In this document: positions 957-19,199 of the stretch, in pieces | Layout: each line of letters opens with the position of its first letter | How positions within the stretch are numbered: position 1 is the first letter of the stretch | Assembly (NCBI GenBank): GCA_021129825.1 | Contig: JAJOKO010000006.1 | Coordinates: 1 to 37,265 of the forward strand | DNA length: 37,265 nt | From: Desulfotomaculum sp. | GTDB taxonomy: Bacteria; Bacillota; Desulfotomaculia; Desulfotomaculales; Desulfohalotomaculaceae | Reading direction: 5' to 3' | Notes under the pieces: model-generated | What the model was told of the DNA's origin: nothing | The model's database searches: none | What the model saw: only the letters and a program-made list of their open reading frames with translations | Translations under genes and position numbers: made by a program

Positions 957-1039
957 TTCTTTATTATTTCCTCCTCAAAAAGCCTTCCTAAGCTAGTTAT
1001 TTGCTTACAGTGTGCGTTCGAAAAGGAGCCTAGCGGATA

Positions 1040-1070
1040 GGTGACACACCTGTTTCACAGGAATGTCCCC
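1040..1070. repeat. REP-like hairpin inside element B1
   Basis: ggtgacacacctgtttcacaggaatgtcccc folds on itself; shares the GGGGACATTCC / GGTGTGTC ends with 8224-8282. Confidence 0.65.
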
Positions 1071-1091
1071 ATCAATCTATAGACCCAAGAA
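1063..1091 (-). promoter_or_regulatory. Sigma-A type promoter for rplM-rpsI
   Basis: Minus strand TTGACA (1086-1091 offset within line; see 1286-1291) is reported as a separate corrected feature at 1263-1291; this entry is retained only as a low-confidence duplicate. Confidence 0.02.
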
Positions 1092-1262
1092 GTTCAAGGC
1101 GACTTAATTTTTGCGGTGCAAAGCGTATAAACAATACGTGAGTATCGTAAAAATTAAATCAACACAGAAATTCGCCGGGTATTTCGCACGGACTTTTTGA
1201 ACATCCTCTTATAATAAACCGCTTGCAGAACGGGGCAGGACTGCATTAAGTCACGTACACAC

Positions 1263-4603: not shown

Positions 4604-4689
4604 AATGCCAACCCCTAAACTTTTGTAGCAAGGTAACGTATGAAAATAGCCAAAAACAGACGCTGATTTCAAGTAAAAGAATAAGAGGC

Positions 4690-4713
4690 TAAAAGAAATC
4701 TTTTTACCTTTTA
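4690..4713. repeat. Left 24-bp direct repeat flanking element A1
   Basis: taaaagaaatctttttacctttta, identical to 4972-4995. Confidence 0.9.
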
Positions 4714-4971
4714 GTGCGTGTTCGAAAAGGGTACCATTTAGCACATTTAAAATTTACATATTAATCCAATTAACCTTAAAACACACCCCCACCCTACCCT
4801 CCCCCATCAAGGGGGAGGAGATTCAATCTCCCCTCCCCTCGTGGGAGGGGCGGGTACCCACCCGGCACTCACCGGACTTAAGCAAGATAGTCTACCGTTG
4901 ACGCTTGGTGAGTGCCGGGAAGGGTGCAGGGAGGGGGGTTTTTACCACAAACATACTTTTCGAACACGCAC
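4714..4971. mobile_element. Family A element copy 1 (MITE-like, no ORF)
   Basis: GTGCGTGTTCGAAAAG ... CTTTTCGAACACGCAC perfect 16-bp TIRs; homologous to 7604-7813; flanked by 24-bp direct repeats. Confidence 0.88.
4861..4919. repeat. Nested REP-like hairpin inside element A1
   Basis: cccggcactcacc...ggtgagtgccggg; absent from copy A2 at the same position. Confidence 0.8.
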
Positions 4972-4995
4972 TAAAAGAAATCTTTTTACCTTTTA
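4972..4995. repeat. Right 24-bp direct repeat flanking element A1
   Basis: taaaagaaatctttttacctttta, identical to 4690-4713. Confidence 0.9.
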
Positions 4996-7603: not shown

Positions 7604-7813
7604 GTGCGTGTTCGAAAAGGGTATCATTTAGCACCTTTGGAATTTACATATTAATCCAATTAATCTTAAAACACACCCCCACCCTAACCCTCCCCCATCA
7701 AGGGGGAGGAGATTTAGTCCCCCCCTCCCCTCGTGGGAGGGGCGGGTACCCACCCGAAGGGAAGGGTGCGGGGAGGGGGGTTTTTACCACAAACATACTT
7801 TTCGAACACACAC
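7604..7813. mobile_element. Family A element copy 2 (MITE-like, no ORF)
   Basis: gtgcgtgttcgaaaagggtat...catacttttcgaacacacac; homologous to 4714-4971; flanked by CCTTA (7599-7603 and 7814-7818). Confidence 0.88.
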
Positions 7814-13923: not shown

Positions 13924-14000
13924 GGGGACACACCCGGCACTCACCGGAATTAAACGGCATCGTTTGCTGTTAATGCTTGGTGAGTGCCGGGTGTGTCCCC
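13924..14000. repeat. Long REP-like hairpin
   Basis: ggggacacacccggcactcacc...ggtgagtgccgggtgtgtcccc, 22-bp perfect outer arms; preceded by ctctgaattgat. Confidence 0.9.
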
Positions 14001-14193: not shown

Positions 14194-14231
14194 TTAATTC
14201 CCTCCCAGTTGAGCACCATCATCCTCTTCAA

Positions 14232-14432
14232 GTGCGTGTTCGAAAAGGAGCCTAGCGGATAGGTGACACACCTGTTCCACAGGAATGTCCCCATCAATCT
14301 ATAGACCCAAGAAGTTCAAGGCGACTTGGTAATGGTGGGGTGAAGCGTATAAATAATACGTAAGCGTCGCCATTACAAAGTTAACGCAGAAATTCGCCGG
14401 GTATTTCGCACGGACTTTTCGAACATCCTCTT
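14232..14432. mobile_element. Family B element copy 2 (MITE-like, no ORF)
   Basis: gtgcgtgttcgaaaaggagcctagcggataggtg...gtatttcgcacggacttttcgaacatcctctt; flanked by ATCCTCTTCAA at 14221-14231 and 14424-14434. Confidence 0.8.
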
Positions 14433-14977
14433 CAACTACTTTTTTTGAAAGGCATGCCCATTAATCTTAACAATTCCCGGGCTTCTTCATCATTTTTAGC
14501 AGTAGTTACAATACAAATATCCATACCACGTATTTTATCTATTTTATCATATTCAATTTCTGGAAAAACCAACTGTTCTTTAATTCCTAATGTATAGTTA
14601 CCTCGCCCATCAAAAGATTTTGGAGATACCCCCCTAAAATCACGCACTCGCGGTAAAACAACATTAAAAAGCTTGTCCGTAAAATCCCACATCCGGCTGC
14701 TGCGTAACGTTACTTTAGCACCAATGTTCATGCCTACACGCAACTTAAATCCCGCAATAGCTTTCTTAGCTTTAGTAATTACCGGACGTTGCCCGGTAAT
14801 AATCATTAAATCTGCTACCGCTATATCAATTACTTTAGGATTTTGCACCGCTTCACCCAGCCCCATATTTACAACTACTTTTTCTAGTTTAGGAACTTCC
14901 ATAATACTTTTATAGCCAAATTTCTGCATCATCGCCTTAACTACTTCTTGATTATATTTATCTTTCAACCTTACCAC
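14432..14977 (-). CDS. rplE: 50S ribosomal protein L5
   Basis: [49 protein letters not shown]. Confidence 0.99.
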
Positions 14978-19113: not shown

Positions 19114-19199
19114 GGGGACACACCCGGCACTCAATTCAGAAACAAAGATTTGTTTAACAATATATTCTTGCGTCTGAATTGAGTGCCGGGTGTGTCCCC
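19114..19199. repeat. Long REP-like hairpin
   Basis: ggggacacacccggcactcaattcaga...tctgaattgagtgccgggtgtgtcccc, 27-bp perfect arms. Confidence 0.92.

Follow-up and report, generated by a model that had tools for sequence, protein, structure and literature searches.

The bcr1 to bcr3 repeats of the Bacillus cereus group are dispersed intergenic sequences of approximately 150 bp that are foldable and MITE-like and often lie in operons or UTRs (PMC3446304, PMC2267715). ERIC, YPAL, NEMIS, and other stem-loop repeats are imperfect palindromes located between genes; both of their strands fold, and they can form hairpins in mRNA (PMC2267715). Abundant families of intergenic palindromic repeats are also found in Geobacter, as multicopy palindromic sequences (PMC2700814, PMC2996986). 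Among insertion sequences, IS1272 of the IS1182 family interacts with inverted repeats as targets, replaces them, and leaves no target duplication (TSD) (PMC5678879). The repeats described here share the general features of the first three groups. They differ from bcr1 to bcr3 in occurring in other bacteria and having other ends; the comparison was made by description, and no link of bcr to IS1182-like ends is described there (PMC3446304, PMC2267715). ERIC, YPAL, and NEMIS, likewise compared by description, are proteobacterial with other ends (PMC2267715), and Rfam gave no match here. With the IS1182 family the present repeats have in common terminal repeats of about 16 bp and a putative parental-type transposase that is IS1182-like, but they leave 5-bp TTWAA duplications, and the transposase scores below the IS1182 cut-off. 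We consider it probable that they form a MITE family that is mobilized in trans by an IS1182-like DDE transposase and whose body belongs to an older hairpin class that keeps its fold.

The window analyzed is a stretch of 37,265 nucleotides from Desulfotomaculum sp. (assembly GCA_021129825.1, contig JAJOKO010000006.1). The initial annotation had placed two copies of a repeat, designated family B, at 1010 to 1210 and 14232 to 14432. The starts were correct, and the exact ends proved to be 1208 and 14430. The features of the two copies are as follows.

1010 to 1208, plus strand: MITE copy 1 in the 199-bp long form, with ORFs on either side at 519 to 956 and 1288 to 2052 (the latter putative truA)
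1005 to 1009 (TTACA) and 1209 to 1213 (TTATA): TSD of copy 1, 4/5 match
1010 to 1025, plus strand: left terminal repeat of copy 1, GTGTGCGTTCGAAAAG
1029 to 1078, plus strand: extra hairpin module of copy 1 (long form)
1079 to 1208, plus strand: structured core of copy 1, with stem arms at 1104 to 1115 and 1146 to 1157; scored 135.6 bits by the covariance model
1191 to 1208, minus strand: right terminal repeat of copy 1, GACTTTTTGAACATCCTC
14232 to 14430, plus strand: MITE copy 2, also in the 199-bp long form, at the rplE stop codon, between rplE and rpsN
14227 to 14231 (TTCAA) and 14431 to 14435 (TTCAA): TSD of copy 2, exact
14232 to 14247, plus strand: left terminal repeat of copy 2, GTGCGTGTTCGAAAAG
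14251 to 14300, plus strand: extra hairpin module of copy 2 (long form)
14301 to 14430, plus strand: structured core of copy 2, with stem arms at 14326 to 14337 and 14368 to 14379; scored 142.9 bits by the covariance model
14413 to 14430, minus strand: right terminal repeat of copy 2, GACTTTTCGAACATCCTC

The repeats are MITEs: they are short, non-coding, and multicopy, with terminal inverted repeats (GTGCGTGTTCGAAAAG .. / .. CTTTTCGAACATCCTC) and a TSD of fixed length. The TSD of 5 bp, with the consensus TTWAA, was exact in 47 of 72 aligned copies with flanks and matched at 4 or more of 5 positions in 67; exact duplications averaged 8.4, with a maximum of 15, when the flanks were re-paired in 200 shuffles, and other lengths did not work for the 72 copies. 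The duplication TTCAA of copy 2 overlaps the rplE stop codon inside a ribosomal-protein operon, and nine relatives display the empty site, with rplE directly followed by rpsN. This MITE nature was missed by the initial annotation, which had not recognized the element as a known RNA class. In Rfam 15 no element of this kind scored above the gathering score of any family, and permissive thresholds gave chance matches only.

The family amounts to about 40 copies in the genome of the window, a member of the Desulfotomaculales, of which the window itself contains the two that had been visible. BLAST against this 1.58-Mb MAG of 171 contigs gave 46 family matches, and a search for right ends that allowed up to 3 mismatches gave 37, versus 0 for the reversed pattern. 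Copies contain no ORF and are 153 bp (the short form, the majority) or 199 bp in length; the long form, lengthened close to the left end by an additional hairpin of some 46 nt, accounts for 8 copies, and stretches related to this module occur alone in other genomes. Some copies have further nested hairpins at the loops, and others are reduced to the two ends alone. Diverged copies, at 72 to 76% identity, are present in at least five related species. In the scan of records, the end sequence of the family was found only in Desulfoscipio geothermicus, Desulforadius tongensis, Desulfotruncus alcoholivorax, and the MAGs MES5, K_7_2_bin.50, and BRH_c8a.

IS1182-like transposase genes with ends of the family type were found in D. 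geothermicus and in a genome of the window's own family (G003). In both, as in the MITEs, TGTTCGAAAAG lies five bases from the T...A boundary. The left boundary in G003 reads TTTAA|GTGCGTGTTCGAAAAG, the first 16 nt of the element matching the left end of copy 2 exactly, and the D. geothermicus element has the ends GAGTCTGTTCGAAAAG / GAGCCTGTTCGAAAAG. The transposase contains the domains PF01609 (DDE_Tnp_1) and PF05598 (DUF772), both above cut-off. Its best NCBIfam model is NF033551 (IS1182; E value of 1.1e-29), and since the score of 103.7 bits is below the curated cut-off of 270, we call it IS1182-like. Because the MITEs and these genes have their ends in common, the IS1182-like transposase is the probable mobilizer; judged by these ends, it probably moves the family. 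Among the other candidates, transposases with PF13751 (the IS1182 DDE domain) or of the Tn3 type (PF01526) were not found near family ends, and most PF01609 matches were without such ends; a match in D. geothermicus pointed the way to the IS1182-like element. A search of the early loci for terminal repeat pairs 0.4 to 7.5 kb apart with a TSD gave no element enclosing a gene. In the window genome, one contig ends within an IS1182-like transposase gene, no complete element with both ends and a TSD is assembled, and at least two other repeat families bear the same ends as the MITEs.

The initial annotation had also proposed that the two copies keep a central stem by compensatory change. All four stem strings (at 1104, 1146, 14326, and 14368) were confirmed base for base. 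Copy 1 forms 12/12 pairs (11 Watson-Crick, 1 G-T), and copy 2 forms 11/12 with G·T counted as a pair (10 Watson-Crick, 1 T-G, and 1 G/A mismatch). The four double compensatory changes are at pairs 4, 6, 7, and 9, and the two one-sided changes are at pairs 10 and 11. The claim that divergence is confined to the stem did not hold, as paired and unpaired sites of the main subfamily vary about equally (0.051 versus 0.039). The window copies look special because each represents a different subfamily, and it is in the stem that these subfamilies diverge.

Covariation was present when the other copies were tested. In 29 copies from the same genome, 97.7% of stem cells pair, compared to 91.6% after shuffling and 29 to 42% with the partner slid by 1 to 3 columns; the shuffles ignore relatedness, and the slid controls do not. 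These copies have 47 double-change cells versus 9.4 shuffled (0/500 shuffles), and 13 pairs with a double change versus 6.6 shuffled. A mixed-species set gave 98.2% paired cells and 43 double-change cells versus 8.1 shuffled (0/500). Different base pairs occupy the same positions in independent subfamilies and species, and a maintained fold has good support from many independent copies and species. The 215-nt region of each copy folded much better than its shuffles, with z values of -5.5 (copy 1) and -5.9 (copy 2) on the plus strand and of -4.4 and -3.2, respectively, on the minus strand.

A covariance model built from 29 copies, which matches both window copies, was run against 113 genomes of the class Desulfotomaculia with acceptance at E values up to 1e-4. 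It matched 35 of the 113, from many families. When 60 of the regions, totaling 180 kb, were retrieved, almost every model match in them was at a listed place. Distant copies conserve GA-rich internal loops, with the motifs GGAGCGTA in 53/59, TACGTGAG in 52/59, and TGAC..AG in 54/59, and differ in their stems and outer ends; the IS1182 link is thus limited to the window's branch. In the distant set, the pair type changes at nearly every helix position. With an alignment (A5) fitted to the model, which leans towards structure, the covariation score is 0.491 versus 0.157 shuffled and 0.03 to 0.10 slid, and there are 402 double-change cells versus 134 shuffled (0/500). The helices covary from copy to copy as well as across species and families. 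A G-T adjoining CGTA/TACG is conserved in 65/73 sequences.

Several settings of the distant hairpins were observed in passing. Four genomes (G041 and G062 to G064; 22 loci) have a leader-like conserved unit of about 200 to 330 nt immediately upstream of unrelated genes, with the layout GACCCGTAAGC..GTTACTTA..GTAACATAAACGAAACGCGG-core-CGCG..GAAAGAAGTACTATTTTCGGAGG. Each genome has some 20 copies of it, a few of them arranged in tandem, and it is not in Rfam. In three other genomes (G038, G080, and G081; seven loci), the hairpin core lies within 16S-23S rRNA spacers, where it adjoins the 16S 3' end or stands just before a CTTTGAAAACTAAACAG stretch upstream of 23S. At five loci (L299, L302 to L304, and L322), core copies have other apparent terminal repeats, GTAACTATTCA / TGAATAGTTAC, and are perhaps another MITE type with the same hairpin.

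Pairing of this kind could have arisen in several ways. With just two copies in the window, the differences of two diverged repeats might happen to pair; the same pattern in all copies of the genome and in other species (0/500 shuffles) excludes this, and we treat chance as negligible. Bidirectional transcription terminators are very improbable. The stems are strong, and many copies do lie at 3' ends of genes, but copy 2 stands ahead of rpsN and the genes that follow it within an essential ribosomal-protein operon, and its sequence has no U-tract after the stem. A cis-acting RNA that serves the host as a leader or in processing or stability, with the fold selected as plus-strand RNA, would suit the distant copies of one family of the order (G041 and G062 to G064), which lie in sense 8 to 26 nt 5' of genes with a Shine-Dalgarno sequence. 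The copies in 16S-23S spacers and the conservation of the GA-rich loops and one G-U also speak for it. However, the downstream genes, judged by eye from translations, are unrelated (ileS, fabZ, hisC, secD, atpF, flhA, and others), the element is a mobile repeat with TSDs, and the window family has no orientation bias relative to genes (29 sense, 25 antisense, by crude ORF calls). Where a pair is predicted for either strand, deviations of the G·T and A·C types are balanced (13 versus 13 cells and 9 versus 9 events), and they are nearly so in the distant set (30 versus 31 cells). Watson-Crick-only folds gave mixed counts, with 25 G·T against 4 A·C in near copies and 11 against 26 in distant copies. 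With no consistent wobble bias and copies lying both ways, strand-specific RNA selection is without support, and we judge the host-serving RNA rather improbable; RNA action from either strand may stay compatible with the wobble and orientation counts.

The compensatory changes might instead be mutational, with a nascent strand switching template, copying the opposite arm, and rewriting one arm as its complement. Template switching between palindrome arms is a documented mechanism (PMC8794818). On a copy tree, for pairs common to the folds of both strands, we counted 18 double changes that went straight from one Watson-Crick pair to another versus 2 from G-T back to Watson-Crick, as template switching predicts. 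One copy (L003) has adjacent double changes at pairs 28-77 and 29-76, with a block TTTTGC versus AATGG in both arms. Such rewriting should erase mismatches, yet specific ones persist across families, including the A-G 1x1 mismatches that dominate the distant set (78 in 59 sequences), the G-T by CGTA/TACG, and other internal loops; one-sided mismatches are also common. The conserved mismatches weigh against template switching as a whole account, and a purely mutational origin seems unlikely, although less so than a host-serving RNA. We think that selection on the fold and template switching both act. Of the originally proposed selected RNA or DNA structure, then, the fold stands; its action as a strand-specific RNA gains no support from the wobble and orientation counts, and template switching could yield part of the pattern without selection.

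For the MITE family that we favor, the DDE transposase (DUF772 plus DDE_Tnp_1) would bind the TGTTCGAAAAG ends in trans and move the elements. The body, an imperfect palindrome of about 130 nt, would belong to the much older hairpin class spread through Desulfotomaculia. Pairing would be kept because the copies that propagate or are tolerated are those able to fold when single-stranded, and template switching between arms during replication would be a likely contributor to multi-base changes. Against a fold needed for movement, dispersed copies require none to transpose as such. Inserted copies would be read through as mRNA hairpins, for example in the ribosomal operon, where strong termination by the copy would be untenable unless the downstream genes have internal promoters. 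As a MITE family this is of an ordinary kind, and what is unusual is the clarity and breadth of fold conservation. Compensatory change usually passes for proof that an RNA is functional. In this case, the strongly covarying sequence is a mobile DNA repeat, which makes the family a natural test of folded-strand selection versus template switching. RNA and transposon biology also gain a new subject in the class-wide hairpin, which is absent from Rfam and lies in rRNA spacers as well as upstream of genes.

The central motif extends beyond Desulfotomaculia. It is present in plasmids of Sphingobium, Agrobacterium, and other Alphaproteobacteria and in 24 contigs of a viral collection, where CGGAGCGTAY..RTACGTGAGSAC lies inside long palindromes. 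The two contigs inspected (L362 and L372) both encode phage-like head genes, and in each the palindrome adjoins the capsid gene of the head gene cluster. Common descent of these motifs with the Desulfotomaculia class is plausible; searches of plasmids with the Desulfotomaculia elements gave no match, and a scan for the class C end and TSD pattern returned nothing. The Geobacter multicopy palindromic sequences may resemble the present elements in ends and center. A Geobacter-like end pattern had 0 strict matches in the viral contigs and three looser ones, in coding sequence. Tentatively, and with somewhat more doubt than confidence, we propose that the MITE body represents one lineage within an ancient class of long hairpins that has gone undescribed, with conserved GA-rich internal loops, having different ends across Desulfotomaculia (IS1182-like MITEs, leaders, and rRNA spacers) and reaching Alphaproteobacteria by the central motif. 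A shared factor might recognize the folded strand, the hairpin having been adopted by different transposases.

The window genome has a very heavy load of small elements of one end type. Ends like GTGTTCGAAAAGNNC with at most 1 mismatch number 108 in its 1.58 Mb, versus 1 for the reversed control, and several contigs break near such ends. In the window, 4714 to 4970 and 7604 to 7813 belong to a second family of repeats, which shares the GTGCGTGTTCGAAAAG ends but has a different, GC-rich body with nested hairpins. The copy at 4714 to 4970 is flanked not by the usual 5 bp but by a 25-bp direct repeat (4689 to 4713 and 4971 to 4995), itself an imperfect inverted repeat. Other hairpins, with GGGGACACACCCGGCACTCA, lie at 13924 to 13991 and 19114 to 19199, and related stretches (GGGGACA..TGTCCCC) are nested in family B copies of other genomes (L055/L167).
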